In this document: one piece after another, positions 299 to 49,070 of the stretch | Position numbering within the stretch: position 1 is the first letter of the stretch | Layout of the letters: each line of letters opens with the position of its first letter | From: Sporomusa sphaeroides DSM 2875 | Lineage (GTDB): Bacteria > Bacillota > Negativicutes > Sporomusales > Sporomusaceae | DNA: 64,000 bases | NCBI RefSeq assembly: GCF_001941975.2 | Contig: NZ_CP146991.1 | Coordinates: 2,944,501 to 3,008,500, forward strand | Reading direction: 5' to 3' | The notes under the pieces: model-generated | The model's database searches: none | What the model saw: only the letters and a program-made list of their open reading frames with translations | What the model was told of the DNA's origin: nothing | Translations under genes and position numbers: made by a program

Positions 299-346
299 AA
301 TGGCGATCCCGTAGGATTCGAACCTGCTATCTTTTGATTCGTAGTC
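299..346 (-). repeat. degenerate tRNA-Arg 3'-end copy (old attachment site)
   Basis: This stretch matches the 3' half of the tRNA-Arg at 50357-50433 with several mismatches, and lacks the 5' half. The sequence on its left (about 250-298) also matches the left flank of the 18027 copy, including a decayed version of the hairpin at 17988-18014. It is best read as the outermost, oldest att remnant of the island. Confidence 0.75.
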
Positions 347-3489: not shown

Positions 3490-4563
3490 TCAGGTCCCTG
3501 CCGCCTGAACCACCTCAAATAATTGCTTGTTGAGATAAATTCTCTCCTTGCCAATTTTCTGCGATACAAGGAAACCAGCTTCTTCTAGCGCCGACAAATA
3601 ACCGGCCGCTGTCTTGCGCGAGACACCAAGACCTGTTTCTATGTAAGCCGTTTTAGTATAAAACTCATAGAATAACATCTCCACCAGTTCTTTGGAATAA
3701 ACCCGTGGTAGCGTATTTTTTATGTCTTCTGTGGTCTTGTCCACCACTGCATTAATTCTTTTCACCAACAATAATGTCTCTTCGGCGGTTTGCTCAATGC
3801 CATCCAGGATAAAGAGAACCCATTCCTCCCAAGCTTCTTTCGTTCGCACTTCCTGTAGCAGCCGATAATAGGCGCTTTTGTTGCGTATGATGTATTTACT
3901 AAGATATAAAATCGGACTGTCTAACAATTCTTTAAGAACCAGGTATAAAACGTTTATAATTCTCCCGGTGCGTCCATTCCCATCATAAAAAGGGTGGATC
4001 GATTCAAACTGGTAATGAATGACTGCCAGTTTGATCAGCGGGTCAATCGCATCATAATCATCATTGATATATCTTTCCAGGTTTGACATAAGTGCAAGAA
4101 TTTCTTGTTCACTACTGGGTGGTGTATAAATCACTTCACCCGTTGTCTGGTTTTGCAAAATCGTTCCCGGTAACTTTCTGATACCGGCCCGGTTTTTCTC
4201 AATGTCTTGTTGGATTTCAACAACCATATTTGTGGTCATCATCTTATTTGCTTTGACGAGTTCATACCCTTTCCAGAGAGCCGTCCGGTAGTTTACAACT
4301 TCCTTGGCCGCAGGGTTATGATAATTTGCTTGGGACATAGCCTTGAACAATTCATCGTGAGTGGTTATGATGTTTTCTATTTCGGAACTATCCTTCGCCT
4401 CATTGATGGTCACTGCATTGAGCAAAATGTTCTTATTGGGCATCGTGTCGGCAAAGCCTTTTAGCTCCGCCAGTGCTCTGTGGGATCTGACCAACTGTTT
4501 TAATACTTTCTTAGTCTCAAGGTCAATATCAGGCGGTAAACATTTCAACGTGCTATCTTGCAT
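3490..4563 (-). CDS. Fic/DOC family AMP-transferase, self-inhibited class
   Basis: 357 aa from the ATG at 4563, preceded by AGGGGG. The Fic signature HPFYDGNGRTGR is intact (His base, Asp/Asn for Mg and phosphate, two Arg). An N-terminal SSEIEN fits the inhibitory [ST]xxxE[GN] motif, whose Glu blocks ATP binding in class II Fic proteins. The C terminus has a winged-helix-like segment around TGLGVSRKTAAGYL that could bind DNA, consistent with autoregulation through the palindromes in its promoter. Known family activity is transfer of AMP or another nucleotide part to protein hydroxyls; the target here cannot be read from sequence. It lies downstream of the SIR2 operon on the same strand, with its own promoter. 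Confidence 0.88.
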   Translation of the reverse strand: MQDSTLKCLPPDIDLETKKVLKQLVRSHRALAELKGFADTMPNKNILLNAVTINEAKDSSEIENIITTHDELFKAMSQANYHNPAAKEVVNYRTALWKGYELVKANKMMTTNMVVEIQQDIEKNRAGIRKLPGTILQNQTTGEVIYTPPSSEQEILALMSNLERYINDDYDAIDPLIKLAVIHYQFESIHPFYDGNGRTGRIINVLYLVLKELLDSPILYLSKYIIRNKSAYYRLLQEVRTKEAWEEWVLFILDGIEQTAEETLLLVKRINAVVDKTTEDIKNTLPRVYSKELVEMLFYEFYTKTAYIETGLGVSRKTAAGYLSALEEAGFLVSQKIGKERIYLNKQLFEVVQAAGT

Positions 4564-4584
4564 CGTATCGCCCCCTTTTATTCC

Positions 4585-4613
4585 ATTATATGGGTAATAC
4601 CTTCCCATATCAA
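4585..4613 (-). promoter_or_regulatory. promoter of fic
   Basis: On the minus strand TTGATA (4608-4613) and TATAAT (4585-4590) are separated by 17 bp. The spacer contains ATGGG and CCCAT half sites facing each other, so a repressor bound there would cover the polymerase site. Confidence 0.7.
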
Positions 4614-4640
4614 TATAACGTGAGTAGAAAATAAAAAAAA

Positions 4641-4666
4641 TTACCCACGTTTTTAAAACATGGGTA
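4641..4666. promoter_or_regulatory. palindromic operator-like site upstream of fic
   Basis: TTACCCA (4641-4647) and TGGGTAA (4660-4666) form an inverted repeat around an AT-rich centre, and the same GGGTAA/TTACCC words recur in the fic promoter spacer and at 4591-4596. This suggests co-operative repressor binding, perhaps by Fic's own C-terminal domain. Confidence 0.4.
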
Positions 4667-4877
4667 AGCGTTACCTATATACATTGTATTTTTGGACTCC
4701 CATCATTTCTTTGTTGCAAATCCGCACGATATATGGAGTAACGTATCATCGAGTACTGCAGTAAATATCTATTTTGTATGTCCTTCAATATAATTGATCA
4801 ACTGGTATGGTATGAACCGTATTGCCTTTTGCGGACACCATGAATGGCTGGTACAATAAAACCAGGAGGTGTCCATA

Positions 4878-5168
4878 ATGAAAGGAAAACGATTTGATTC
4901 AGAATTTAAGAAAGATATTGTAAAACTATATATAAATGGAGAGCGCACCTGCCCCAGCTTAGCTGAAGAGTTAGGCCTGCATGAAAATACAATTTATAAA
5001 TGGATTCAGCAGTATAAAGAAAATCCAGAGCAAGCTTTCCCCGGCTCTGGGAACCTTAAGCCCGATGCTGACGAGCTGCGGAAAGCACAACGTAAAATCA
5101 AAGAATTAGAAAATGAGGTAGCCATTTTAAAGCAAGCGGCGGTATACTTCGCAAAGAACAGCAAGTAA
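4878..5168 (+). CDS. IS3-family OrfA (HTH protein)
   Basis: 96 aa from the ATG at 4878 behind CAGGAGGTG. The N terminus has the HTH_Tnp_1 helix-turn-helix (LAEELGLHENTIYKWIQQY) and the C terminus a leucine-zipper-like segment (LRKAQRKIKELENEVAILKQ), as usual for IS3 OrfA. It binds the terminal repeats, and by -1 frameshifting would give the OrfAB transposase. Confidence 0.92.
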   Translation: MKGKRFDSEFKKDIVKLYINGERTCPSLAEELGLHENTIYKWIQQYKENPEQAFPGSGNLKPDADELRKAQRKIKELENEVAILKQAAVYFAKNSK

Positions 5169-6043
5169 TCTATCAATTCATTTATGACCACCGCTCGAAA
5201 TTTGCTGTTCGAGAATTATGCCGCGTACTATCAATTTCCAAGAGCAGTTATTATAACTGGGTCAAAGCGGGCTGTCCAAAACCTTTTGCAAAAGATGCTG
5301 TTTTAGTGGCACATATACAGCAAATTGAACGTGAGAATGATCATAACTATGGCGTTCAGAAGGTGTATGAAGAATTAAACGGAAAAGGAGTTTCCGTAGG
5401 CCGCAGCCGGGTGCAGCGTATCATGCATCAACATGGGATCAAAGCTCAGATTAAAAGTAAATATAAGCCACAAACAACTAAAGCCGATCCAAATGAACAG
5501 GCGTTTCCCAATCTTCTAAATCAAAAATTCGATGTGACCGATTTTAATGCCGTGTGGCTTGCTGATCTTACTTATGTTAGAGTTGGCGGTAAATGGTGCT
5601 ATTTGGCGGCTGTATTAGATCTTGCAAGAAGAAAACTAGTAGGCTGGGCATTAGGAAATCGGCCAACGGCAGAATTAGCTGCTAAAGCACTGAATATGGC
5701 TATTTTGCGGGAGCGGCCGCCTAAAGGCCTTATGCATCATTCAGACATGGGCAGTCAGTACACCTCTAAAAAATACAAAGACATATTAAAGGAAAACGGC
5801 ATGATCGGCAGTATGAGCCGCAAAGGTAATCCGTACGACAATGCACCTATGGAATCTTTTTTCCACTTGTTTAAAGGTGAACATGTTAAAAAACGCTATT
5901 TTGCCACAATTGGCCAAGCCGCTGCAAGCTTCAAAAGTTGGTTTGATTATTACAATACCAAAAGACGTCATAGTGCATTAGGTGGCATTTCTCCGCTAAT
6001 GTACGAAATCAGGAGATACTCGCCATTTAACCTGTCCGCGTAG
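5156..6043 (+). CDS. IS3-family OrfB (DDE transposase), -1 frame of orfA
   Basis: The frame is open from before the end of orfA and continues about 295 codons. The first ATG/GTG-type start (5306) lies inside the conserved N-terminal region, so expression probably depends on -1 slippage near A-AAG (5153-5156) or an upstream A-rich site; the left limit given is approximate. The rve-type catalytic core shows ADLTYV, HHSDMGSQY and NAPMESFF, supplying the D, D and E residues. It catalyses copy-out transposition of the element. Confidence 0.9.
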   Translation, partial: EQQVIYQFIYDHRSKFAVRELCRVLSISKSSYYNWVKAGCPKPFAKDAVLVAHIQQIERENDHNYGVQKVYEELNGKGVSVGRSRVQRIMHQHGIKAQIKSKYKPQTTKADPNEQAFPNLLNQKFDVTDFNAVWLADLTYVRVGGKWCYLAAVLDLARRKLVGWALGNRPTAELAAKALNMAILRERPPKGLMHHSDMGSQYTSKKYKDILKENGMIGSMSRKGNPYDNAPMESFFHLFKGEHVKKRYFATIGQAAASFKSWFDYYNTKRRHSALGGISPLMYEIRRYSPFNLSA

Positions 6044-8074
6044 CCCAATATGGTTCAGTAGCCACTGTTTTGCTTGCGTCTCCTTCTCCCAACACACATT
6101 AAGTACTGCCTTTTCCTCAAATGTTAAAGCCCGATTAGCCCTGTTCGTAAAATACCAAGCCATAAGTAAATTTTGCGTAAAATTAATATCTTTATAAATT
6201 CCTCTATTTCTACATAACATGTCTAATTCCTGGTACCAAGAAGACGTACTCTGGTCATCGGCTTTAGCTAAACGCAACAAAGTAACAGCATTAGCCAGCC
6301 AATGCTCTTGGGACATGTTTTCAAGTGTACGCAATGACTGAAAAATATGAGCTAATCGAGTTGATTCAAACGCATCCCGGTCAAAGAGCATTCCAATAAC
6401 GTGAAGCAAAAGTGGTGTGTACATATTTTTACTTGCACTATGCTCTTGTTGATATGATTTTTGAAGAATGCTTAAAGCACTTCGTAATTCATTAATTTGG
6501 CCGGCATTATCTTGAGAAAGCATCGCACATTGAATATGACAAAGTGCTTTATTCCTCTTCCAATATGCAATTTTCCATCCGTCGAATTTACATAGATCCA
6601 CCATACCTAAAAGTTGAATGGCTAACTGATATTCGCCAATACTGTAAAGTAATTCGCCTACTTCAGTTAACTCTAAATTACTTAATAGGTATTGTCGCTT
6701 GCTTACCTGCTTTGATAGTATTCTGTTGTTTTTGATTGCCAAGCCTACCTCTTGCATATTTCTTTCTAGTTCAATTAATAGCCATAAATCATCAATATAC
6801 AAAATAAATGCGTTGACAAATTCTTGTTGCTCATCTTCATTTAGAATAACTAAAAACAAGCTAATCTCTTTGAACAGCATTCTCCATAATACTTTATCAT
6901 CGTAAGAAAGATGCTCATAACGCGCCTGACGACCAAATTGTATAAGCGCAAAGAGAGCTTTATCTATATAACCCTGCCTGCATGTTTCATCTATTCTGTT
7001 TAAGATGCTAATTTTCAGCAACTCATGAAACAGCGCTTTCCGGATATCATTAAAATATGTCTGATAATCATGTACGTCCCTTAGCCGCCACAGTCTTTGC
7101 GGAGAAGGAATATCTGCATGCTCAAAGATAGCAGTCAACTCGCTCTGCGGAAGTTTTGCCGCAGCTAATGCCGTTTCCTCTATTAGCTCAACAGTCAGAC
7201 TACCGCAGAAATGTAAACCGCCTGAATCAGTAACCCAATATGTCGGATACAGATTCAACAAATAAAGCTGAACATTCTCTGAGATTTGGCGTATAACCGG
7301 ATCGGGATTCTCTCCTAACTTTTTTGCCAGTATATATCCGGCCCATAGCGGCTCTTTATTGACTGGAGTATATAGATAATCCACAAACTTGCCGACAACG
7401 TCATCTGCTGAAGGCCTAACTATTTGCATCCAGGAAATCAACCAATCCAATACCCAGTGGATTCGCACCTGTCTTTCTTGCCATCGCGCATTATTACTAA
7501 AGCTAGACAAGAATGCTCCAGGTATCATATCAGATATGATTAGGGCTGATATCGTTAACGTAGTCGCAATCGGAAGCCTTGCCCAGAGGTTGTTTAATAA
7601 AGATCTGTCTTTTGTCTCTGTACCATCTGTCAACCTGTCCCAGGCATGAGCCATTAATACTCCTTGCTGACCTGGATGAAGCAAGCCCATCAATTCTACT
7701 ATGTCACTATATCCCTTATCATCCCAATGCTTATATCCAAAACGGTCAATAATCCTGAGTGGCCAGGTGGTGCTACCCGACTGATGACATACACGTCCAA
7801 ATACGGCAATATCACTTTCTAGTAAGGCATCAAGACATTGCATAAGACGCTCGGATAGTACCCGCTCTGTTTCAAATAATAGCGTAGGCGGCTGATATAA
7901 ATGATACGTCTCATACCCTGAAACAAAGTCAGTACATTCCCGGTAACGTTCCTTTCGCCAAATGGTTTCATACTCTCTTTCTCCTATACACTGGAATTCC
8001 TCTACCAGGCTTAGCACCTGTTCCGCGAGGATTTCAGCTCGATTTTTCCGTTCTTGCTGTAATGGTTCAGACAT
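5996..8074 (-). CDS. large helical protein, last gene of SIR2/PLD operon; 3' end replaced by IS
   Basis: 692 aa as read now, but the last 20 residues come from the IS3 end. With the IS and one GTA repeat removed the frame runs on ...QWLPYQLINYIEGHTK and stops at 4769-4771, giving 685 aa; only 13 native residues are replaced, so activity may survive. The protein looks almost wholly alpha-helical, with TPR/HEAT-like character, and I recognise no catalytic motif. Its ATG overlaps the end of the PLD gene by 8 bp, which implies translational coupling and probably a shared complex. Possible roles are scaffold, sensor or regulator of the SIR2 and PLD proteins; this is inference. Confidence 0.7.
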   Translation of the reverse strand: MSEPLQQERKNRAEILAEQVLSLVEEFQCIGEREYETIWRKERYRECTDFVSGYETYHLYQPPTLLFETERVLSERLMQCLDALLESDIAVFGRVCHQSGSTTWPLRIIDRFGYKHWDDKGYSDIVELMGLLHPGQQGVLMAHAWDRLTDGTETKDRSLLNNLWARLPIATTLTISALIISDMIPGAFLSSFSNNARWQERQVRIHWVLDWLISWMQIVRPSADDVVGKFVDYLYTPVNKEPLWAGYILAKKLGENPDPVIRQISENVQLYLLNLYPTYWVTDSGGLHFCGSLTVELIEETALAAAKLPQSELTAIFEHADIPSPQRLWRLRDVHDYQTYFNDIRKALFHELLKISILNRIDETCRQGYIDKALFALIQFGRQARYEHLSYDDKVLWRMLFKEISLFLVILNEDEQQEFVNAFILYIDDLWLLIELERNMQEVGLAIKNNRILSKQVSKRQYLLSNLELTEVGELLYSIGEYQLAIQLLGMVDLCKFDGWKIAYWKRNKALCHIQCAMLSQDNAGQINELRSALSILQKSYQQEHSASKNMYTPLLLHVIGMLFDRDAFESTRLAHIFQSLRTLENMSQEHWLANAVTLLRLAKADDQSTSSWYQELDMLCRNRGIYKDINFTQNLLMAWYFTNRANRALTFEEKAVLNVCWEKETQAKQWLLNHIGLRGQVKWRVSPDFVH

Positions 8075-9671
8075 TCACCGTCCCCGCCTTTCGCTTAATC
8101 CAGTGCAGTTCTGGAAATACTTCCATCCCATCCGGATTCATCGGATCAAAGTTTCCGTTCCAAGCCCTTTCAAACTCACCACGAATGGCATCGGCAATAT
8201 CACCTTCCAACCGATAAATTGTACTATGGTAATCACCTAAATCTTTGAGTGAACTGCCGATTTGCCAAACTGCTTTCTCGGTAATGATAAAGCGGTCATG
8301 GAATGCATGTTTACCTGAACGAAACCAGTTGCGTACACTAAAGTTTTTCGTCTCCTTGAGTCTCTGCATCCCTGCCTCTCGCGTATGAAGCTTCTTGTAA
8401 ATGGCGCTGCATCGTGTCATTGTGTCCAATATGTCTTCAATTTGCCCACCACTCCCTGTTGAAGAAGCATTGCCACTAGAAGATGCCTCATCTGCAGGGT
8501 TAAGCCTTTCACCTGAGCATTCACTCAACAATAGCCTTACGTCAAGACTAGGATTTGTTAAACCTAGTACAAGTAATGGAGATAGAATTGATATATCAAT
8601 ATAAGGATCCCAAATCCACAGTTCTTTGACAGCGTTTATATATATATGATCATTAATATTTTGCCGCAGTTTTTCTTTGCTGGTTTTTTCGGCAAAACGA
8701 GTAAATATACTCCCCAGAGATCTGAGTTCCTGTCCACGATTGATTTTATACCGCGTTTGTTCTGCGTCCATCCAGGGCTGTTCCCCGTCTTCATGTCCTA
8801 TGTTTATAGTATTATCGCGCACAACGATATCTAGTTCTTCCTCGTCAGCTTCTTTTTTCACGTTCAACTTCCCCACCACAAGGCCCATGTCGATTTGAAT
8901 TCTTCGCATTAGATAATTCCGATTAGCGGCAATAATTACCCAGTTTTCATCCTGATTTTTCTCATATAGTTCATATCCTAGTTGCACCGGTTTAAATGAT
9001 ATATCAATAGCTCCCCAGTCTTTTTCCTCTGTCAGATCAATCATTTGCTTATAACAACATTCCTTGCCTTCCCAGGCTTCGATGACTACTCTACGTTTAC
9101 TTGGCGCCACACCATCCGGCAGATAGAACACTATTTTACCGTTATCGGGATTATAACAAATTCTAGGTTGTGTATCAAAAGAAGAGGACAGAGAAATCAT
9201 GCACCCTAAAAAATCTTGGAGCTTTTCAATGGTGATGCCTGTACGACTTCTAATAAACGTAAACAACTTGTCCAAAGCTTCCTCATTAGCCGTCAATACT
9301 TTAAAGCCGTTACGATACCATTGTTTTAAAGAAAAACCATGGTTCAACGTTCCCGGCCACCATTCGCTTCCTGTAGAAGAAGCCGGTATATGTGGCAAAA
9401 ATACCTCTGGTCTCTTTCGAAACTGGCCGAATTTAATTAACTTTGGCGCCTCACCAATATCAATACGGTATTCTCCTTTTGTCTCAATAGTATCAATAAA
9501 GACTGCAAACCTGTCATCAGTAAGGTATGCTTCAAACAACTTCAAGCTCTTTGAACCTGAACTCTGTTTCCACACTTCCTGTTGATATATTTCATCAACA
9601 CTCCTTATTAAAGTAAAAACATTGTCAAAGATATCTTTCTTGCCAACAGCGAATATCTGTATTCTTTTCAT
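8067..9671 (-). CDS. PLD-fold protein, VPA1262-like family
   Basis: 534 aa. The C-terminal third holds ELWIWDPYID, then HAFHDRFIITE and WQIGSSLKDLG, the order seen in phospholipase-D-superfamily domains (His-containing catalytic strand followed by a GS(S/T) turn). The canonical HxK appears as H-D-R, so catalysis may be altered. A low-complexity Ser/Gly linker lies about residue 400. The N-terminal 350 residues resemble, from memory, proteins called VPA1262 family, which recur in defence islands; a profile search would settle this. It sits between the SIR2 gene (60 bp upstream) and the helical protein (8-bp overlap). Likely role: nuclease or nucleic-acid binding module of the operon. Confidence 0.6.
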   Translation of the reverse strand: MKRIQIFAVGKKDIFDNVFTLIRSVDEIYQQEVWKQSSGSKSLKLFEAYLTDDRFAVFIDTIETKGEYRIDIGEAPKLIKFGQFRKRPEVFLPHIPASSTGSEWWPGTLNHGFSLKQWYRNGFKVLTANEEALDKLFTFIRSRTGITIEKLQDFLGCMISLSSSFDTQPRICYNPDNGKIVFYLPDGVAPSKRRVVIEAWEGKECCYKQMIDLTEEKDWGAIDISFKPVQLGYELYEKNQDENWVIIAANRNYLMRRIQIDMGLVVGKLNVKKEADEEELDIVVRDNTINIGHEDGEQPWMDAEQTRYKINRGQELRSLGSIFTRFAEKTSKEKLRQNINDHIYINAVKELWIWDPYIDISILSPLLVLGLTNPSLDVRLLLSECSGERLNPADEASSSGNASSTGSGGQIEDILDTMTRCSAIYKKLHTREAGMQRLKETKNFSVRNWFRSGKHAFHDRFIITEKAVWQIGSSLKDLGDYHSTIYRLEGDIADAIRGEFERAWNGNFDPMNPDGMEVFPELHWIKRKAGTVNV

Positions 9672-9731
9672 ATTTCCACTCCTGTCCCCTAGTAGTCCAT
9701 TAGTTAATTAACCTTTATTCGCCCCACTACT

Positions 9732-12700
9732 TCAGGTTACAGATAATCCTAACCTACTAAGCGCTTCTTTCAACTGCTGTTTGGACTTATCCGATATATT
9801 TTTATCACCTAATAACTTCTCAGCAATTTTGCCATATATACCATTGGAGAATTCGCCTGTTGTGAGACTATTCGCTAACCAAATCCATAACTTTGCCGCA
9901 TCCTCCGGATATTTCTCACAAATGTCAACTCTTTCAAAACGATTAAGCTGGTAGCATTCTTTAATTTTATCTGTTGAAAAGCCAATAATTTTCTCAATTA
10001 ACTGAGCACTATAATCCGTAAATTCAACTATCCACCGCAGCATTGCTAAGAGTTCTCCTGCTGTTAACTCTATGATCATGCGACTTCGCATATCTAACAA
10101 AGGTAACAATATATTATTCCATACCCAGTGACTATAACGCTTATCTTTTATACCCGATAAACGTATACAACTAAAATATCTCGCCCTCTGTTGATCATTG
10201 AGTTTCAGTATTACCTTCCCCAATGCTTTTGCTGCTAATGGTTTTTCTATATACCGGCTCATGGTAAGCCAAGCCAAATACTCACAATATCGCTCTGCAT
10301 CAATCTGGTCTATGAAATCTACGGAGATAACAAAATGCCGCAACAACGGGGCGATAAGTCTTCGAGAAATTTGCCCCCAAAATAAAAAGCCATCCCATGC
10401 ACGCTCCGCCTGTTCTATTGATTTACACCAATCAAAAAGAGGTAATATCTTCGTTATTGCCCAGTCTGGCGCCATTGCATATAAAAAGTGGGCTTGACTA
10501 GCACAAATCACTTCTGTAATTTGCGCTATGTTTCTATTGTCGTCTAGCAACTTTGATAAGCGTTCTGTAACAGCAACGATATATTTTTCATCTTTTCCTT
10601 GGGCACTGAGAACTTCTAATAACACCAGGGTAAGATCACTTACTGGATGATTAATTGCCGCATCTAACCAGCGTCGTGAAGGATCTTTCTCAAACGGAAC
10701 AGCTATAGCCCAAGATAATGTGTAATCAACACAATTTAGTAGTTCATCGACTACCTGATGCGCGTACTCATCAAATCCTCTCTTAGACCTGCTTTTTAGA
10801 AATGAAGCAACTGCATTACCTAAATGCTCCAGCATTACAATGTTCTGTATTTTTTTGAATAATAACTCCTGTTGCTCATGGGTTAACTCTGCATCACCCA
10901 AAATACCCAATAGGGTTCTACTTAAATAGTGGGCATTCTTATTGTCTTGCTGCCAAAGAATATCTGCGATAGATATTGCCCACGCCAACTCTTTTGCGGC
11001 TTTTTCCCTAAAAGCTATTTCAAACTTTTCCTTATTGCTGTTTTTGCTAAAGAAATCATCAGATAGAGCAATTTCATCATACCACTGTAAAGCCGATATA
11101 ACATTGCCGTCTAAAAGTGCGGAAATATCTATTGTTACTGTTTCTTTATCTGAATCTGTTGTTTGATATTCAATACCAGCATTTTCTAATAATGTTTTAA
11201 CGCTCTCTACTGCTGCAGTTAACTGCTTACTTTCGCTATGTTTCTCTGCCATACTTTTTAATAAGTAATACGTTCGTAGGCTGCGATTATGATTTAATTT
11301 TCCATCATCCGGATCATGATATACTAGCTGTAATAAGGTGCTGATCACCTCTTCTTTTATTGCCGGTGACAAGTTTATAAAAATTGAACCAAGTAATTGA
11401 TATGACTCCCTATAGAAAACAGTCCAATGCAATATTTGTTTGCGGAGTAGCCATTGGCACTTTTTATCTTCACTCCAGTTGGCTAGGGAAACTGCATAAA
11501 GCGACAGACGCTGTAACATCGGTATTTTTGAATCATTCCACCCAACAATCAACTGTTCTAAGGATGCCTGGTGGTGCTCAGCATACCATTGGATCAAGTC
11601 AACTGCTGCATCAAGCAGTGGGTCCATCGGCCTAATATGAGTAAAATCTTCATCGCCTAGTTTCTTAACAATGGTTTCTCTATGACAAGAAACTTCGTCG
11701 AGCTCACGCGACCATCCACCCTGTTCAATCAACATATAGTAAGCTTCCGTTAGACACGTGGTAACTAAGCTCTGTACTTGATCGTGAATGTCTGGCAAAC
11801 GGTTCCGTAATACGCTCTGCCAGTACTCACACAATTCTTTCGGATCATTTGACCGGATAACAATCGACGCATGCACCGGTCTTTCTTTTTCGCCTTCTTC
11901 AATATATATACTTCTATCAAATTGAAGCATTGGTTTGACTAGCCGAGAAAAAATCGCCCACTCCAAGTAGCTAGAGAAAGGCACTTTTTTATCTATTAAC
12001 ATGTTCTGCAACAATTCCCAATGCGCAGGCAGTGTTGCATCTCGCAGCAATATATAAATCCAGGTAACCAACTGCTCAGTAGAAAAATTTATCCCTCGAT
12101 AGCAAATGGTTGAACCAATCTCGTACCATAAACCATAGCTAAGTTTTTGTTTCGTAAGTTCCTGCAGTAACAGACCATTTGCCTTTTCAAGGCATGATTC
12201 GGCTATCCATGCAATGTATTCTCTAGAGGAATCTTCAGTCTTAGTAAAAGGATCAAATAACAATTTAACTTCTTTAATATGCTTAATTGCCCATTGAAAC
12301 CATAATTCACCCGCAGCGTAACGACAAAAATGTCTTTGACGATTTACTTTTGACAAACTCCTTAACAAATAGTCCTGGTCTTGAGGAGTAAGTAATGTTT
12401 CCTTCTTTGTTGTCAGAAGGTCACGCATGCGGACTTCATGCTCCAATTCGCTCATGCAATATTGCTGAGCAATATCCTTAGCCACATACAACATGGCTTT
12501 ATATTTTTCGCTACCAGATTGCTCAAATAATATGGGTACAATGTCCAGTTCGTCCCATTCGCGGCGAGCATCGTTTCCTGTAAATGCATAATGTTTATTG
12601 GCACACACCGATAACCCGCTGGTAAGATAACGGACCAACGGATCGCGATTACTATAGCCGATGAATAAGACAGTGTATTTTGCAAACATAGCTTGAAGAA

Positions 12701-13241
12701 ATCGTGCTGCCCAGGCATAATTCAAATAAGCTTTGCCGAAATCCTCACCAGTCACAACGATACTTTCTTTATTATCAACCCGGCCATGTAAATATACGAT
12801 GCCCTGAAACTTATCTCCTAAAGGTACGGCAGGAGCCACATACTCCGGTACTGTCCAACCTAATTGCTTAGCAATAGTACTAAGATGGGGGTCAAAATTT
12901 GTTGTAACAATTCGCACGCTATTGTCGCTTCCAAACCAACGAAGTAGATTTTCATGCCATTCATTCGGCTTAGAATCTGGTGGATTTATTTTCTCAAGTA
13001 CTCGCTGATGTACATCATAGCCTGCTTTCACAACTTTACTTAAATTGTAGTCTAGCGACAGCTTATTTGAAAAAGGCACACCGGCTTCTTTACAAATGTC
13101 TTTTGTTAGTTTTACGAAATCCGGTAAATTTGAAGGGGCAAGTTTAGAGATCCCAGCTCCAAGAAACAACACTACCTGCTCTTCTTCCAGTTGCTTCAAT
13201 AAATCATCAGGAACGTTCACACCATACTCTGTCATTCTCAT
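9732..13241 (-). CDS. SIR2-domain protein with long C-terminal helical region (DUF4020-like)
   Basis: 1169 aa. The N-terminal 250 residues form a SIR2-like fold: GAGIS at 28-32 (dinucleotide loop), TTNFD at 113-117 and YLHGR with His152, plus FIGYSNRD near 195. In defence-associated sirtuins these residues carry out NAD+ hydrolysis after phage sensing. The remaining about 900 residues are helical repeats of the type found C-terminal to SIR2 in DUF4020 proteins and would serve as sensor or oligomerisation part. The ATG at 13241 is 31 bp after the DUF4209-like gene, with GGAGAG upstream. Expected action is cytoplasmic NAD+ depletion and abortive infection. SIR2 call strong; C-terminal family name moderate. 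Confidence 0.85.
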   Translation of the reverse strand: MRMTEYGVNVPDDLLKQLEEEQVVLFLGAGISKLAPSNLPDFVKLTKDICKEAGVPFSNKLSLDYNLSKVVKAGYDVHQRVLEKINPPDSKPNEWHENLLRWFGSDNSVRIVTTNFDPHLSTIAKQLGWTVPEYVAPAVPLGDKFQGIVYLHGRVDNKESIVVTGEDFGKAYLNYAWAARFLQAMFAKYTVLFIGYSNRDPLVRYLTSGLSVCANKHYAFTGNDARREWDELDIVPILFEQSGSEKYKAMLYVAKDIAQQYCMSELEHEVRMRDLLTTKKETLLTPQDQDYLLRSLSKVNRQRHFCRYAAGELWFQWAIKHIKEVKLLFDPFTKTEDSSREYIAWIAESCLEKANGLLLQELTKQKLSYGLWYEIGSTICYRGINFSTEQLVTWIYILLRDATLPAHWELLQNMLIDKKVPFSSYLEWAIFSRLVKPMLQFDRSIYIEEGEKERPVHASIVIRSNDPKELCEYWQSVLRNRLPDIHDQVQSLVTTCLTEAYYMLIEQGGWSRELDEVSCHRETIVKKLGDEDFTHIRPMDPLLDAAVDLIQWYAEHHQASLEQLIVGWNDSKIPMLQRLSLYAVSLANWSEDKKCQWLLRKQILHWTVFYRESYQLLGSIFINLSPAIKEEVISTLLQLVYHDPDDGKLNHNRSLRTYYLLKSMAEKHSESKQLTAAVESVKTLLENAGIEYQTTDSDKETVTIDISALLDGNVISALQWYDEIALSDDFFSKNSNKEKFEIAFREKAAKELAWAISIADILWQQDNKNAHYLSRTLLGILGDAELTHEQQELLFKKIQNIVMLEHLGNAVASFLKSRSKRGFDEYAHQVVDELLNCVDYTLSWAIAVPFEKDPSRRWLDAAINHPVSDLTLVLLEVLSAQGKDEKYIVAVTERLSKLLDDNRNIAQITEVICASQAHFLYAMAPDWAITKILPLFDWCKSIEQAERAWDGFLFWGQISRRLIAPLLRHFVISVDFIDQIDAERYCEYLAWLTMSRYIEKPLAAKALGKVILKLNDQQRARYFSCIRLSGIKDKRYSHWVWNNILLPLLDMRSRMIIELTAGELLAMLRWIVEFTDYSAQLIEKIIGFSTDKIKECYQLNRFERVDICEKYPEDAAKLWIWLANSLTTGEFSNGIYGKIAEKLLGDKNISDKSKQQLKEALSRLGLSVT

Positions 13242-13272
13242 ACCGTCGGACTCTCCATTTCCTAAATATCCC

Positions 13273-14640
13273 TTAACTGTTCTCGCCCAAATCAGCTCTA
13301 ACCATTTTAAAATTCAAAAGCATACAGAACAACTGAAGTATAATCATAGCGTACTTAAGAGTAAATATAACCGGCGAAGCCAATCCGTGAGCAATATTAT
13401 TTCTTATGTTCCAACCGGTTTGTGCTACCATGACAGTCTCTATGTACTTGTGAATATCAATCCCTAGCGTTTCCTCCACTTCTGGCCGACTTAAGAATTC
13501 CCCAAAGACCTGTTCATGCTGGAACTCTCCCTCTTTTATAACCGTAGTCGGAATATTAATTGCAAAAAACATATCACGTAAACACGCTTCAAATTGTGGA
13601 ACCAAAATATGTAATGCACTAATATAGTCCTCTGCAAAAAATCTTTCAAAACCGGTTCTAATCAGGTTTTCTCGTTTTGGTTCATAAAAATCCCAATCAA
13701 GGTATTTCTGAAGCAATGAGTCCGCAGATAAGCCCTTTTCTTTTAAGATGCCAAAAATCGGCATTAAAAGAAATATGGATTGTAATTCTAAGCGCCAGCA
13801 GTACTTTCGCTTAAATTCCAGTTCTTTCTGCTCCTCATACTCCGTTGCTTGAGCGATCCTCCTACCATCTGCTATAACCGAAGTAGGTATTCTTGCCCCT
13901 AATATAAACTCTTTAAAATTTTCTTCGATATTTAAATATAACTCAGAGACATCAATAATTAAATTTGGGTCACGTGTAAGAGCTTCTAATATTCTCTCTA
14001 CATTTCCCAATTCTCGATACCAAGTGAGAACTCGTTCTATATGCTGCCGAAACTCTTCCGGTATAGTCATAGGTGTCATAACCGCTTTAAATTCATTTTC
14101 TTGTTCCGCCAAATATGCTTTTTTTAACTTAACTTTCAATTCATTGACTTTGTTGGTTGCGCCAACGTTGAGATAGTGGCGGAGGGCCATTTGCAAAAAA
14201 CCAGCTTTGACACCTTCTGTTTTTTCCACTCTTCCTTGCTGATGCTCTGCTTCTAGTTCAAACGACAAACCAATCTCCAAATTCAGATCATTTATCGGCT
14301 GCTGTAATTTCTTGTTCCAGGCAACCAAACAGGAACACACCCAGCGATGCAATTGGAGATTTTTTTCTTTTAACCAAAAATCACGCGCTTCATCTAATTT
14401 TCTTAAGGCTAACTGTGTTATTTCCCTATCAATCATTAAGTTCATTTTGCTATTATCCATAACTTTAAGCAAAATATCTGAAGGCTCAATAACCCATCGG
14501 TAGGAATAGATTGAGCCTATTCCAGATAAAAAGTCTGCTATTTCTTCGATAGATTGTTTAAGCAAATCTTCTTTTTTATAGCGCAAACAAAGTTCGGTAG
14601 CCCTAGATAATTGATCAATTGTGTAAAGGTATTGAACCAT
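13273..14640 (-). pseudogene. 3' part of DUF4209-like gene split by IS3 copy 2
   Basis: The apparent ATG at 14640 lies inside the IS end, so this 455-codon frame is a truncated remainder. Joined across the IS to the 15847-16317 part (dropping one TAT), it gives a continuous 598-aa protein. The last 150 residues carry ALHILVPQFEACLRD and WNIRNNIAHGL, the hallmark of DUF4209-type domains. R-NNIA-H (about residues 556-561 of the rebuilt protein) fits the R-x4-6-H motif of HEPN RNases. It was the first gene of the SIR2/PLD operon. In the present state only a fragment starting in the IS could be made. Confidence 0.8.
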
Positions 14641-14646
14641 ATTGGG

Positions 14647-15534
14647 CTACGCGGACAGGTTAAATGGCGAGTATCTCCTGATTTCGTACATTAGCGGAGA
14701 AATGCCACCTAATGCACTATGACGTCTTTTGGTATTGTAATAATCAAACCAACTTTTGAAGCTTGCAGCGGCTTGGCCAATTGTGGCAAAATAGCGTTTT
14801 TTAACATGTTCACCTTTAAACAAGTGGAAAAAAGATTCCATAGGTGCATTGTCGTACGGATTACCTTTGCGGCTCATACTGCCGATCATGCCGTTTTCCT
14901 TTAATATGTCTTTGTATTTTTTAGAGGTGTACTGACTGCCCATGTCTGAATGATGCATAAGGCCTTTAGGCGGCCGCTCCCGCAAAATAGCCATATTCAG
15001 TGCTTTAGCAGCTAATTCTGCCGTTGGCCGATTTCCTAATGCCCAGCCTACTAGTTTTCTTCTTGCAAGATCTAATACAGCCGCCAAATAGCACCATTTA
15101 CCGCCAACTCTAACATAAGTAAGATCAGCAAGCCACACGGCATTAAAATCGGTCACATCGAATTTTTGATTTAGAAGATTGGGAAACGCCTGTTCATTTG
15201 GATCGGCTTTAGTTGTTTGTGGCTTATATTTACTTTTAATCTGAGCTTTGATCCCATGTTGATGCATGATACGCTGCACCCGGCTGCGGCCTACGGAAAC
15301 TCCTTTTCCGTTTAATTCTTCATACACCTTCTGAACGCCATAGTTATGATCATTCTCACGTTCAATTTGCTGTATATGTGCCACTAAAACAGCATCTTTT
15401 GCAAAAGGTTTTGGACAGCCCGCTTTGACCCAGTTATAATAACTGCTCTTGGAAATTGATAGTACGCGGCATAATTCTCGAACAGCAAATTTCGAGCGGT
15501 GGTCATAAATGAATTGATAGATTACTTGCTGTTC
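14647..15534 (-). CDS. IS3-family OrfB (DDE transposase), copy 2
   Basis: Identical in protein sequence to the copy at 5156-6043, with the same ADLTYV / HHSDMGSQY / APMESFF catalytic residues and the same -1 frame relation to its orfA. The 5' limit is approximate because expression probably uses frameshifting. Confidence 0.9.
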   Translation of the reverse strand, partial: EQQVIYQFIYDHRSKFAVRELCRVLSISKSSYYNWVKAGCPKPFAKDAVLVAHIQQIERENDHNYGVQKVYEELNGKGVSVGRSRVQRIMHQHGIKAQIKSKYKPQTTKADPNEQAFPNLLNQKFDVTDFNAVWLADLTYVRVGGKWCYLAAVLDLARRKLVGWALGNRPTAELAAKALNMAILRERPPKGLMHHSDMGSQYTSKKYKDILKENGMIGSMSRKGNPYDNAPMESFFHLFKGEHVKKRYFATIGQAAASFKSWFDYYNTKRRHSALGGISPLMYEIRRYSPFNLSA

Positions 15535-15812
15535 TTTGCGAAGTATACCGCCGCTTGCTTTAAAATGGCTACCTCATTTTCTAATTCTTTGATTTTACGT
15601 TGTGCTTTCCGCAGCTCGTCAGCATCGGGCTTAAGGTTCCCAGAGCCGGGGAAAGCTTGCTCTGGATTTTCTTTATACTGCTGAATCCATTTATAAATTG
15701 TATTTTCATGCAGGCCTAACTCTTCAGCTAAGCTGGGGCAGGTGCGCTCTCCATTTATATATAGTTTTACAATATCTTTCTTAAATTCTGAATCAAATCG
15801 TTTTCCTTTCAT
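15522..15812 (-). CDS. IS3-family OrfA, copy 2
   Basis: 96 aa, identical to the product of 4878-5168, with the N-terminal helix-turn-helix and C-terminal zipper. It starts at the ATG behind CAGGAGGTG. Confidence 0.92.
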   Translation of the reverse strand: MKGKRFDSEFKKDIVKLYINGERTCPSLAEELGLHENTIYKWIQQYKENPEQAFPGSGNLKPDADELRKAQRKIKELENEVAILKQAAVYFAKNSK

Positions 15813-15846
15813 TATGGACACCTCCTGGTTTTATTGTACCAGCCAT

Positions 15847-16317
15847 TCATGGTGTCCGCAAAAGGCAATACGGTTCATATTCATCACGCTTTTCTTTCGT
15901 TGCCAGTCTGGCAACTTGCAATAAGGCCGGAACTAGATTACAAAAAATATCATACTTATTTTTAAACTTCTTTTCACCTTGATAGTCAAGCAATATATCG
16001 CCATACCGGCTCTTCAATTGTGGATTTAAACTTTTTGAAAATCGTTCTGCATAATAGTCCAGCTTTTCTTGTGAATATTCATCAATAAAATCGGGCATTC
16101 GCCGTTTATATGTCTGTGGATTTATAACAAAGCTTCGTGTATATAACTCTAAAGCATCCAATTCGTATTGAAGTAAATCTACAATTTTATTGTTTTTCTC
16201 AGCATTAGCCTCACCTCTCAAACTTCTCAGCGGATTGCTTAGAGTGGATAATTCCAGTACAAAACAATGCTCATCCATGTCTTGGATAACATTTTTAAAA
16301 CGATTTTCTAATTCCAC
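15847..16317 (-). pseudogene. 5' part of DUF4209-like gene split by IS3 copy 2
   Basis: GTG start at 16317 behind GAGGCGG. Residues 1-147 are native; the last nine (after ...KRDEY) are encoded by the IS. Native frame resumes at 14629 without shift, so the ancestral gene is 598 codons. This N-terminal part is helical (ELDALELYTRSFV, EKLDYYAERFSKSL) with no recognised motif. Confidence 0.8.
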
Positions 16318-16416: not shown

Positions 16417-16509
16417 CCATAATATTCCTTTATTAGAGGAACCTAGAGATTTATAAGTCTTTAAAAGAATAAATTGTAGATTACTGCCATAAAAAAAAGC
16501 CACCGGCAT

Positions 16510-16716
16510 TCACCGGCAGCCTCCCTGCAAAAACTGAACAACCATCCCCAGCGTCAATACCCCGCCGGCCAGCACCACCAGCCAGAACACCGACAGCAGC
16601 AAGCTGTGATCGGCACAGTACCGGACACTCGCCTGGTCCTTCCAGTCCAGTGCGTTCCAGTAGCAAACCCACAGTGCGGCCTCCACCCGCCACCCTCTTA
16701 CGATCTCGTCCCACAT
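16510..16716 (-). CDS. 68-aa membrane protein, paralogue 1
   Basis: ATG at 16716 with GGAGGTG eight bases upstream. It has a WRVEAALWVCYWNA segment and a C-terminal transmembrane helix (LLLSVFWLVVLAGGVLTLGMVVQFL). A 68-aa paralogue lies at 23480-23686, likewise downstream of a SymE-like gene. The stop is followed by a GC-rich hairpin. No family recognised. The fixed pairing with SymE hints at a partner role, which is untested. Confidence 0.6.
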   Translation of the reverse strand: MWDEIVRGWRVEAALWVCYWNALDWKDQASVRYCADHSLLLSVFWLVVLAGGVLTLGMVVQFLQGGCR

Positions 16717-16841
16717 ACCGCTGCACCTCCGTTCGTCAGCAGCGGCTCTCCCGCCGCCGTCACCCGGAGGGGCGCAGCGAAAGCGGAGCAGGCGCAGCCT
16801 TGACCGGTGTGATACCATGAGAAGACCGGCGGCGGGGAGGC

Positions 16842-17063
16842 CTAGTACCGTCTTTTCCTGAATACGGTCATTGCCGCACCTAAAGCCCCAATTCCTTCAT
16901 CCGGGATGAAGCCGTAACAGGTCACCCGTTCCTGGTAGTATTTCAGAGCAGCCGGTGTTAACTGCATCCATATCCATTCAGAGCCGTCAGGGCTGGTCAC
17001 CAGACGGCCCCATAATCCTTTGCCACGTTTTATCTTCTTTCTGACCTGTTCAATGGCCAGCAT
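16842..17063 (-). CDS. hypothetical 73-aa basic protein overlapping symE copy 1
   Basis: Chosen start is the ATG at 17063 (GGGAG nine bases upstream), overlapping the SymE-like stop by 14 bp; a longer frame to 17114 is possible. The N terminus is very basic (VRKKIKRGKGLWGR) and there is a WIWMQLTPAALKYY segment. The second module at 23.5-24.6 kb lacks this gene. Function unknown. Confidence 0.45.
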   Translation of the reverse strand: MLAIEQVRKKIKRGKGLWGRLVTSPDGSEWIWMQLTPAALKYYQERVTCYGFIPDEGIGALGAAMTVFRKRRY

Positions 17064-17268
17064 GACTGTCGTCTCCCGTTTCTCGCCGCCGGGCCTTAAT
17101 GAACAGACCGCCATTGCTTTCGGTTACTTCGATCTTTGCCCCGCTTGAAAAACCAAGGTCCTGGAGCCATTTACCCTGCAGCCGGATAAGAAGCCGCCTG
17201 TCTTTCCCCTGATTGAGGTATGTATAGTAGACAGTCAGAATGCGTGAACTTTCCCTTTCACTGGACAA
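17050..17268 (-). CDS. SymE-like toxin, copy 1
   Basis: The core RILTVYYTYL...IRLQGKWLQDLGFSSGAKIEV matches the SymE fold, an AbrB-like small domain of SOS-linked type I toxins that acts on nucleic acids. I prefer the TTG at 17268 (GGGGG spaced seven bases) giving 72 aa; an ATG at 17358 would give 102 aa with a non-conserved extension. A terminator-bounded RNA unit lies directly upstream, in both copies, and may control it. Confidence 0.7.
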   Translation of the reverse strand: MSSERESSRILTVYYTYLNQGKDRRLLIRLQGKWLQDLGFSSGAKIEVTESNGGLFIKARRRETGDDSHAGH

Positions 17269-17343
17269 ATCTATACCCCCTATCGCAAGCTGCAGCAAAG
17301 CCCTCCTAATTGAACGGCCCTGCCATTGCTTTTTATAGGGGGA

Positions 17344-17387
17344 AATTAAAAAGCGCATGCGAGGTTTTTACCCTACACATGCGCTTT
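17344..17387 (-). terminator. rho-independent terminator upstream of symE copy 1
   Basis: AAGCGCATG (17351-17359) pairs with CATGCGCTT (17378-17386); on the minus strand the hairpin is followed by TTTTTAATTT. It ends the transcription unit starting near 17553. Confidence 0.8.
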
Positions 17388-17586
17388 GTTTCGTCGGTTT
17401 GCTAAAATCCAAATCCAATAAACCGGAACAGAACCGGCTGTCAACAGAAAAGCAGTCAGTAAAATATGTATGCGAACTATTACCTTTTCACCTGCGCGAG
17501 TCTGGAAGTGCTCCAACACTTCCGGGTCACGGCGACTCTTTAATTTCCACCTATTGCTAATATAGCCCTTTCTGAGTGTATTGCAA
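17388..17586 (-). ncRNA. candidate small RNA or leader upstream of symE, copy 1
   Basis: On the minus strand TTGCAA (17581-17586), 16 bp and TATATT (17559-17564) form a promoter, then about 200 nt run to the terminator at 17344-17387. A hairpin (GGAAGTG...CACTTCC) lies near the 5' end. Copy 2 at 24180-24596 keeps promoter, hairpin and terminator. A 72-codon frame (17373-17591) with a hydrophobic end (ILLTAFLLTAGSVPVYWIWIL) exists here, but it begins at the promoter and is broken in copy 2. The unit is therefore more likely RNA, or a very short toxin frame lacking a clear start. Confidence 0.45.
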
Positions 17587-17661: not shown

Positions 17662-17785
17662 AAAGGACTGACGTGCTCGACACACGCCAGCCCAACAGAC
17701 TGTCTAACCGAACGGTTAGCCCGGATTACGTTATTGAGAAATAACCGCAAACCATGGCGTGGGAGCGGTTATTTCTGTTTTATGA
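17662..17785 (+). ncRNA. RatA-like antisense antitoxin RNA
   Basis: Starts just after the promoter at 17627-17655 and ends at the hairpin 17738-17775 (AAATAACCGC with GCGGTTATTT) followed by CTGTTTT. It is complementary to the 3' end of the toxin mRNA (17769-17846), the layout of TxpA/RatA type I systems. The ends are inferred from promoter and terminator. Confidence 0.65.
17738..17775. terminator. bidirectional terminator shared by toxin mRNA and antitoxin RNA
   Basis: An 11-bp stem (17738-17748 with 17765-17775) lies between the convergent toxin and antitoxin units; it covers the toxin stop codon. Confidence 0.75.
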
Positions 17786-17846
17786 TGAACACAACAAGTG
17801 TTGCGAATGCGACCATTAAGTACATTGCCTCAAATGTTGACACCAT
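17769..17846 (-). CDS. 25-aa holin-like type I toxin (TxpA/Hol_Tox family)
   Basis: The 25-residue peptide starts MVSTFEAMYLMVAFATLVV and ends with lysines, the standard pattern of Firmicute putative holin-like toxins: one transmembrane helix and a charged tail, acting on the cell membrane. GGAAGGGGGTGG gives a very strong Shine-Dalgarno, which can pair with CCTTCC just upstream and so be hidden. A TATAAT at 17903-17908 would start the mRNA. The convergent antisense RNA supplies control. It is too short for usual gene calling. Confidence 0.8.
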   Translation of the reverse strand: MVSTFEAMYLMVAFATLVVFIIKQK

Positions 17847-17987
17847 ACCACCCCCTTCCTGGAAGGAAGGAGCCAACCGTTCCCCGACAGCCTGTTACGC
17901 TTATTATAGCATAATCTTCCAGACTGGAAAAAGAATTTTAAAAACGTACCAAGGAGCAACATAAGGGACAGTTACATAAATTAAAAA

Positions 17988-18026: not shown

Positions 18027-18078
18027 AATGGCGACCCCGGCAGGATTCGAACCTGCGACCTTTTGATTCGTAGTCAAA
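18027..18078 (-). repeat. attL: 52-bp copy of tRNA-Arg 3' end
   Basis: Identical over 52 bp to 50355-50406, which covers the T arm, acceptor 3' strand and CCA of tRNA-Arg. The 5' half of the tRNA is absent here. With the integrase at the far end this marks the left boundary of a 32.3-kb integrated element. Confidence 0.9.
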
Positions 18079-23284: not shown

Positions 23285-23479
23285 TATTTCCTCCAATAAG
23301 TTAATTTCTCAAGTTAATTTCTCAAGATGCTAAAAGACTTGATTTATTGATATTTTCTATTGTATTCGACATATAAATTTAATTTTCAATATTAACCAAC
23401 AATTATCCTTTGGGCTTCTAGGTGCAAACTATAAATACATTAAATTATGTTATTCTATTGGCAAAAAAAGCCGCCGGCA

Positions 23480-23686
23480 TCACCGGCAGCCTCCCTGCAA
23501 GAACTGTACAACCGTACCCAAAGCCATCAACCCGCCGACCAGCGCCATCAGCCAGAAGACCGACAGCAGCAGGCTATGATCGGCACAGTACCGGATGCTC
23601 GGCCGGTCATCCCGGCCTATCGCGTTCCAGTAGCACACCCACAGTGCAGCTTCCACCCGCCACCGTCTCACCAGAAAGTCCCACAT
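23480..23686 (-). CDS. 68-aa membrane protein, paralogue 2
   Basis: Same length as 16510-16716 and very similar (WRVEAALWVCYWNA, DHSLLLSVFWLMALVGG). ATG at 23686 behind GGGAGGTG; the GTG nine bases earlier is less likely. A GC-rich conserved leader separates it from the SymE-like gene in both modules. Function unknown. Confidence 0.6.
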   Translation of the reverse strand: MWDFLVRRWRVEAALWVCYWNAIGRDDRPSIRYCADHSLLLSVFWLMALVGGLMALGTVVQFLQGGCR

Positions 23687-23876
23687 ACCCCACACCTCCC
23701 GCTCATCGGCAGCGGCTCCCCGCCGCCGTCACTCTCCAAAAGAGCGCGGGAGTAAACTTCCTATTGTGCTAAGATTCCGGCGCGGCACACCGCGTCACCC
23801 GCAGGGGCGCAGCGAGAGCGGAGCAGGCGCAGCCTTGACCGGTGTGATACAATCATAAGACCGGCGGCGGGGCGTT

Positions 23877-24098
23877 TCAGCGGCTAGACCTCTCCTTTTC
23901 CTTTTCGGTTATTTCGTCGGTTACAGCTTTTATGAGCAAAGCTCCGCTGTGTTCTTCGATCACCACTTTATCACCGCTCTGAAAGCCAAGGTCCTGGAGC
24001 CATTTGCCTTGCAAACGAATGAGCGGCCGCCGGTCTTTACCATTGAGGTATGTATAATAGACAGTCAAAATACGTGAGGTTTCCCTTTCACTGGACAA
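23877..24098 (-). CDS. SymE-like toxin, copy 2
   Basis: 73 aa from the TTG at 24098 (GGGGGT seven bases upstream); another TTG at 24128 is possible. RILTVYYTYL, PLIRLQGKWLQDLGFQSGDKVVI and a following ALLIK strand match the SymE family, including the Pro that is lost in copy 1. Probably the better preserved of the two copies. Confidence 0.72.
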   Translation of the reverse strand: MSSERETSRILTVYYTYLNGKDRRPLIRLQGKWLQDLGFQSGDKVVIEEHSGALLIKAVTDEITEKEKERSSR

Positions 24099-24179
24099 GT
24101 ATATACCCCCTATCGCAAGCTGCAGCAAGGCCCTTGATCATGGCAAGCACTTGCCGGGCAGCTTTTTTATAGGGGGAAA

Positions 24180-24596
24180 TTAAAAAGCGCATGCGAGGTT
24201 TTTATACCCTACACATGCGCTTTGCTTCATCGTCTGCTAAATCCCAACACCAATAAACCGGAACATAACCGGCCTCAACAGAAAAGCGGTCAAGAAATAT
24301 GTAAGCGAACGCTTGCCCTTCCGTTGACAGTGTATCGGAAATAGGCTTAGTCTCCTGCTACATGAAGTCGCACAGCCTGCGCATCTCCTGCCGGCATCTC
24401 CGTTACACGCAGTGCCTCGCTTGTGTTCAAGCGGGCGGCATTGTATAATAGAAATGTCGTCGTGGACAGCTTAGCTGTTACGTGTAGGTAGTGTGTTTAC
24501 CTGCGCGAGCCTGGAAGTGCTCCAACACTTTCAGGTCACGGCGACTTTTTAATTTCCACCTATTTCTAATTATAGCTCATTTCAAACGAATTGCAA
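24180..24596 (-). ncRNA. candidate small RNA or leader upstream of symE, copy 2
   Basis: Promoter TTGCAA (24591-24596), 16 bp, TATAAT (24569-24574) on the minus strand. The GGAAGTG-type hairpin and the AAGCGCATG...CATGCGCTT terminator are as in copy 1, with about 150 nt of extra sequence between. The hydrophobic frame seen in copy 1 is interrupted here by a one-base difference. Confidence 0.4.
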
Positions 24597-48966: not shown

Positions 48967-49070
48967 GCTGCGCCTGTAATTCGTTGCAAACCGCATGCGG
49001 TGGCAACGGGTTATACAACAACAGCGTGCAGCCGCCCTTGCCACCGACATCAAAAAGGTGGTGTGTGCTC

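Follow-up and report, generated by a model that had tools for sequence, protein, structure and literature searches.

Insertion of an IS3-type element into a candidate helical-repeat/HEPN (DUF4209) defence gene on a putative tRNA-Arg island of Sporomusa sphaeroides DSM 2875

Background

The closest described relatives of the gene studied here are the proteins of DUF4209 (PF13910), matched in PADLOC by the model PDC-S39. In PMC3710099, DUF4209 is listed among newly recognised HEPN families, the overlapping C6orf70 family is noted for a TPR fusion and for its occurrence in operons related to restriction-modification, and HEPN domains with the motif R-x4-6-H are argued to be RNases. The designation PDC in PADLOC marks a candidate; in the literature searched, we found neither a test of phage protection by the family nor any other experiment with a DUF4209 protein. 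The copy described here is similar to DUF4209/PDC-S39 proteins in its length of about 600 aa, its HEPN motif, its match to the profile in one stretch and the lack of a conserved partner gene, but it differs in being split by an insertion sequence (IS). RnlA and Csm6 are similar in the C-terminal fold of our model (VIA-align Z 7.3 and 8.3, respectively) and in the R-x4-H motif, whereas the present protein has a helical-repeat N-terminal part. As for the loss of defence genes by IS insertion, nothing specific was found in the accessible text of the literature searched.

Results

In the present study, we analysed a window of 64,000 nucleotides of contig NZ_CP146991.1 of Sporomusa sphaeroides DSM 2875 (positions below are those of the window), in which a DUF4209 gene is interrupted by an IS with the following features.

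15881-16317, minus strand: first part of the broken DUF4209/HEPN gene (N-terminal fragment), starting with GTG at 16317 and about 145 codons long
15878-15880, no strand: target-site duplication TAT, upstream copy (sequence comparison)
14633-15877, minus strand: IS3-type insertion sequence of 1245 bp with both transposase frames
15522-15821, minus strand: orfA of the IS (HTH_Tnp_1, profile match)
14647-15384, minus strand: orfB of the IS (integrase core, rve), frame at -1 relative to orfA and open further upstream
14630-14632, no strand: target-site duplication TAT, downstream copy (sequence comparison)
13273-14640, minus strand: C-terminal fragment, a 455-aa DUF4209/HEPN frame with the motif RNNIAHG, its ATG derived from the IS end

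The element looks like a complete member of the IS3 family, a name that we assume from its architecture: an orfA with an HTH, an orfB with an integrase core that lies in the -1 frame, inverted repeats, imperfect, at the two ends (TGAACCGTATTGCC / TGAACCATATTGGG) and a 3-bp duplication of the target. It has the same orientation as the interrupted gene. The first-pass annotation had proposed that deleting 14633-15877 and one TAT exactly reverses the insertion, and both the duplication and the joined flanks confirm these boundaries. Joining the flanks by script gave 598 codons plus the stop codon, with zero internal stops, just as that annotation had read.

An uninterrupted homologue of 592 aa, the nearest one from a named organism, was found in Propionispira arboris DSM 2179. 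It aligns over residues 1-593 of the joined protein with 404/593 identities (68%) and a single gap near residue 38, none being at the junction, which corresponds to P. arboris residues 145-147. In tblastn, 9 of the 18 genome-contig loci match both sides of the junction and the other 9 its C-terminal side only; likewise, half of the ten viral-contig loci cross it and the other five match the C-terminal side. The two refuting conditions set by the first-pass annotation (a stop within the rebuilt frame, or homologues that align to one half only) were not borne out. PDC-S39 also spans the junction in one stretch (residues 77-565 to profile positions 89-576 of 615, E 4e-35), although the gain from the N-terminal part is only about 10 bits, since the joined protein scores 119.6 bits and the C-terminal fragment alone 109.8 bits; the N-terminal fragment alone matched no PADLOC family at E<=1. 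Compared with P. arboris, dN/dS was about 0.23 in the N-terminal part and 0.15 in the C-terminal part (rough values, at dS 0.9-1.2), and both halves had therefore been under constraint. Judged from these comparisons, the joined frame is a real gene and not a chance frame. Among the 200 related genomes searched, DUF4209 relatives occurred, besides the own genome, only in two (G011 and G014). A search of genome contigs with the single protein found no DUF4209 homologue; the 18 genome-contig loci were found only with an alignment of closer rows as the query.

Near the C-terminus, the protein matches Pfam DUF4209 (E 2.5e-14; score 53.5 bits, cut-off 22.3), and its sequence RNNIAHG fits the R-x4-6-H pattern of HEPN domains. 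All 24 rows of alignment A4 share the R, A, H and G of the motif R-[NH]-x-x-A-H-G; this alignment omits L044 and L045 (which are like L043), L035, L049 (a remnant), L050 (a recombinase-like fusion), L007/L009, L010 and L027-L029. Among all relatives' frames, R-x4-H is found in 31 of 33, the exceptions being L049, without the motif, and L029, the relative on a Novosphingobium plasmid, with Y in place of H.

The model of the P. arboris protein consists of an array of helical repeats followed by a helical C-terminal domain (pLDDT 89.0, pTM 0.67). With Foldseek and VIA-align, residues 6-325 of the full model matched generic alpha helical repeats, and a sequence search of solved structures returned helical-repeat and TPR-like rows only. 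The junction lies in the linker between helices 117-140 and 146-162 of this model, or just where the second of these helices begins. The C-terminal domain of the window protein was also modelled alone (pLDDT 88.7, pTM 0.85), and 12 of its 15 best VIA-align rows are titled HEPN, Csm6 or RnlA, or YutE, with RnlA and Csm6 repeated; the remaining rows of these 15 are 2q00, 1ufb and one designed protein, the first two of which we take to be HEPN proteins. The best match was 2hsb (110 aligned residues, rmsd 2.9) at Z 8.7, a modest score for a helical bundle that is under the caution level of VIA-align itself, and the first unrelated natural protein in the list was bacteriorhodopsin at Z 5.5. Foldseek of the same domain against the PDB gave no match at E<=0.001 (best E 0.21). 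As far as a predicted model goes, a HEPN helical fold is supported.

The broken gene is part of an apparent island array at tRNA-Arg(acg) that spans 299 to 50433 and includes a tyrosine integrase at 48984-50246. Its distal segment of 17.8 kb, which contains the broken gene, the SIR2 gene, a VPA1262-type gene, a fourth gene, a SoFic gene and a helicase, is bounded by two att-like copies of the tRNA 3' end.

18027-18078, minus strand: att-like site, identical over 52 bp to the tRNA-Arg 3' end, at one boundary of the segment with the broken gene
299-346, minus strand: degenerate copy (90%) of the tRNA-Arg 3' end, distal att-like site (sequence comparison)

Exact fragments of the tRNA-Arg 3' end of 47-51 bp are also present in related genomes. 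On the same island, a cassette is duplicated at 16492-17566 and 23463-24576, with pieces of 83-94% DNA identity; the first copy, which holds a SymE-type frame (PF08845), is upstream of the DUF4209 gene, and the second is upstream of an Upx-like gene. A short frame at about 17770-17850 on the minus strand, near the att copy at 18.0 kb, resembles by eye what we presume to be a small holin-like type I toxin.

The genome contains three identical copies of the IS, with 0 differences over 1245 bases, one of them inverted in the same segment.

4813-6057, plus strand: second identical IS copy, inverted, with the duplication GTA at 4810-4812 and 6058-6060

Each copy has a 3-bp duplication of its own, TAT for 14633-15877, GTA for 4813-6057 and AAT for the third (L003), and these matching flanks make an assembly artefact unlikely. 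The absence of differences limits the divergence of two copies to less than about 0.24% (95%). Since the three copies are identical, a recent jump is supported, and the inactivation appears to be as recent as the first-pass annotation had judged from the identical copies. The fourth full-length relative in the same genome is 74% identical. What sets the element apart within its family is that no full-length copy in 59 other genomes exceeded 74% identity, when at most six candidates were scored per genome. At the ends of contigs C75 and C80 of one genome (G039), however, pieces of 124-125 bases match the two IS ends at 96-97% identity; they are probably a close copy split by assembly, so that a closer relative may exist there. 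The IS was not found in the plasmids searched. The third copy terminates a methyltransferase-like frame (named by eye), and thus the IS seems not to aim specifically at defence genes. With uniform placement, at least two of the three copies would fall into this 17.8-kb segment with a probability of about 4e-5, a figure for a segment picked post hoc; the clustering would be accounted for by local hopping or by an IS that had arrived together with the island.

Discussion

We consider it probable that an IS3-type element transposed into a stand-alone candidate defence gene (helical-repeat/HEPN, DUF4209, PDC-S39) on the tRNA-Arg island, that gene being most likely null and the neighbouring SIR2 gene most likely a separate unit. 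A defence role of the DUF4209 protein is likely because of the HEPN, Csm6 and RnlA titles among the best fold matches, the listing of DUF4209 as HEPN in PMC3710099, and the neighbourhood of the P. arboris gene, in which proteins match models of PADLOC, for example PDC-S33 and Old/AriA-type ATPases. In the mechanism that we propose, the full-length protein would be an infection-triggered ribonuclease, in which the N-terminal helical repeats would either recognise the trigger or keep the enzyme inactive, and RNA would be cut by the HEPN domain at the C-terminus. Dimers are known among HEPN proteins, and this domain is probably dimeric as well. With its helical-repeat part split by the IS at a linker before a helix, the gene has most likely lost its function.

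The first-pass annotation placed the broken gene at the head of an operon with SIR2, so that polarity of the IS would silence the whole system. The genes concerned are as follows.

9732-13241, minus strand: SIR2_2 gene, 1169 aa, uninterrupted, starting 31 bp after the broken gene
8067-9671, minus strand: third gene, protein with a VPA1262-family N-terminal domain (family match)
5996-8074, minus strand: fourth gene, a 692-aa frame that matched no family in Pfam, PADLOC or NCBIfam

The first two genes are co-directional and 31 bp apart, and the next genes are closely spaced, as expected of an operon. Furthermore, published DSR2 proteins, which have a SIR2 domain, are reported to deplete NAD+ on infection. 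The present SIR2 protein is similar to the defence-associated sirtuin Dsr1 in about its first 255 residues (the best stretch covers the first 255-259), but it scores only 219 bits against the cut-off of 1400 of the NCBIfam Dsr1 family. A terminator-like site on the transcribed strand at 13385-13369, between the IS and SIR2, would fit polarity, but both the terminator-like sites (5 found, 4.1 expected) and the promoter-like sites (11 found, 9.7 expected) in the region are at chance level. Against silencing, the IS is co-oriented with SIR2 and transcribed in its direction, with no terminator-like site found on the transcribed strand inside the IS. With SIR2 uninterrupted and the IS in the same orientation, a cut-off of SIR2 from its promoter is no more than a hypothesis; polarity and read-through into SIR2 are both possible, and SIR2 may still be transcribed, either from the IS itself or from a promoter of internal position. 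The fourth gene loses no more than its last 12 codons to the second IS (the joined frame has 685 aa, the present one 692 aa), and thus this gene may still work.

The comparison with other loci also speaks against a common system. Within 6.5 kb of 17 DUF4209 loci, no frame like the window SIR2 was found (blastp, E<=1e-6); these loci include three near-identical Enterococcus islands, and some flanks are cut by contig ends (L031, L032, L045 and L047 among them). No conserved partner gene was found in the 17 loci, and tblastn of the SIR2 protein on 18 genome-contig loci of DUF4209 gave no match. Conversely, relatives of SIR2 occurred in six of 398 genomes of the phylum sample besides the own genome, and no DUF4209 gene was found in the stretches compared around them, two of which are at or near contig ends. 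A single-protein search of viral contigs found no SIR2 relative; 61 plasmid records matched SIR2 in part, none of them over 80%. Homologues of the third and fourth genes were found in the own genome only (among 398 and 200 genomes, respectively) and not in plasmids or viral contigs. The sole match to any window gene among the 17 loci was to the VPA1262-type third gene, in L046, a metagenome-assembled genome (MAG); there, a 1147-aa frame at 3622-7062, 21% identical to the third gene, lies 1.7 kb from the DUF4209 gene. In three Enterococcus genomes (L043, L044 and L045), the neighbouring frames around DUF4209 are 99-100% identical, and a recent transfer of these islands is thus suggested. DNA homology with P. 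arboris extends from 18 bp before the start codon to 17 bp before the gene end, that is, over little more than the single gene, and therefore the DUF4209 gene seems to move as a single-gene cassette. Such a cassette is compatible with co-transcription of DUF4209 and SIR2 in the present organism. Taken together, a joint operon silenced by the IS is unlikely: the DUF4209 gene is probably not part of the SIR2 system, as the 17 loci and six SIR2 relatives show no pairing in the stretches compared, and the further proposal that a costly SIR2 system was switched off finds no support either; SIR2 is most likely a separate, intact module.

A different outcome of the same insertion would be that the IS trims the gene instead of abolishing it. 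The ATG at 14640, within the IS end and 6 nt after the transposase stop, is in frame and opens the 455-aa frame with the entire HEPN part, so that a partial product is possible and might be an altered or deregulated RNase. However, no ribosome-binding site was seen by eye close to this ATG, and a deregulated RNase should be toxic. Truncated relatives elsewhere bear on this question. Of the DUF4209 relative in G011, which belongs to the same family, little more than a C-terminal piece of about 290 residues is left; the break is at an unrelated 1567-bp UPF0236 element (L009 13000-14566), of which G011 has two further copies at 100% identity. The 8-bp duplication present at those two copies is missing at the break, which suggests an adjacent deletion, and the comparable C-terminal HEPN frame left there has a start derived from the element. 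In L050, at a contig end of a Clostridiales MAG, the HEPN part forms an in-frame fusion with a recombinase-like frame, so named by resemblance to a frame beside the L030 gene. Naturally short relatives of 340-407 aa without the N-terminal part also exist (L051, L052, L053, L055, L056 and L057). In contrast, the decayed C-terminal remnant of Paenibacillus sp. UNC499MF (L049) has a stop inside the motif. Furthermore, C-terminal motifs were the search patterns for DUF4209 loci, with which only remnants keeping that end can be found, and thus this biased series must not be read as selection of the HEPN part. Expression of a trimmed enzyme from the window copy is therefore quite improbable in our opinion. 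The four broken copies (window, G011, Clostridiales MAG and Paenibacillus), together with the short forms, led us to a broader speculation, in which we place very little confidence, that mobile elements may repeatedly "decapitate" DUF4209 genes and leave, instead of a null allele, an expressed short HEPN protein with a start supplied by the element, where a sensor-effector protein had been encoded before.

Finally, the identical inverted IS copies flanking 6058-14632 could be seen as a composite transposon that brought the SIR2 genes into the DUF4209 gene, but we reject this as extremely improbable because each copy has its own duplication with different outer flanks (GTA and TAT), and a single copy has DUF4209 gene sequence on either side of it.

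Conclusions

The event in S. sphaeroides is most likely an inactivation of an ordinary kind, in which an IS knocked out a candidate HEPN defence gene that most likely stood alone. Because the evidence points to an independently moving gene, the broken gene should not be annotated within the SIR2 system, and a likely mis-assignment is thus corrected. The locus would represent a clean, recent loss of a candidate HEPN defence gene by transposition, for which an intact close relative, that of P. arboris, is at hand for tests.
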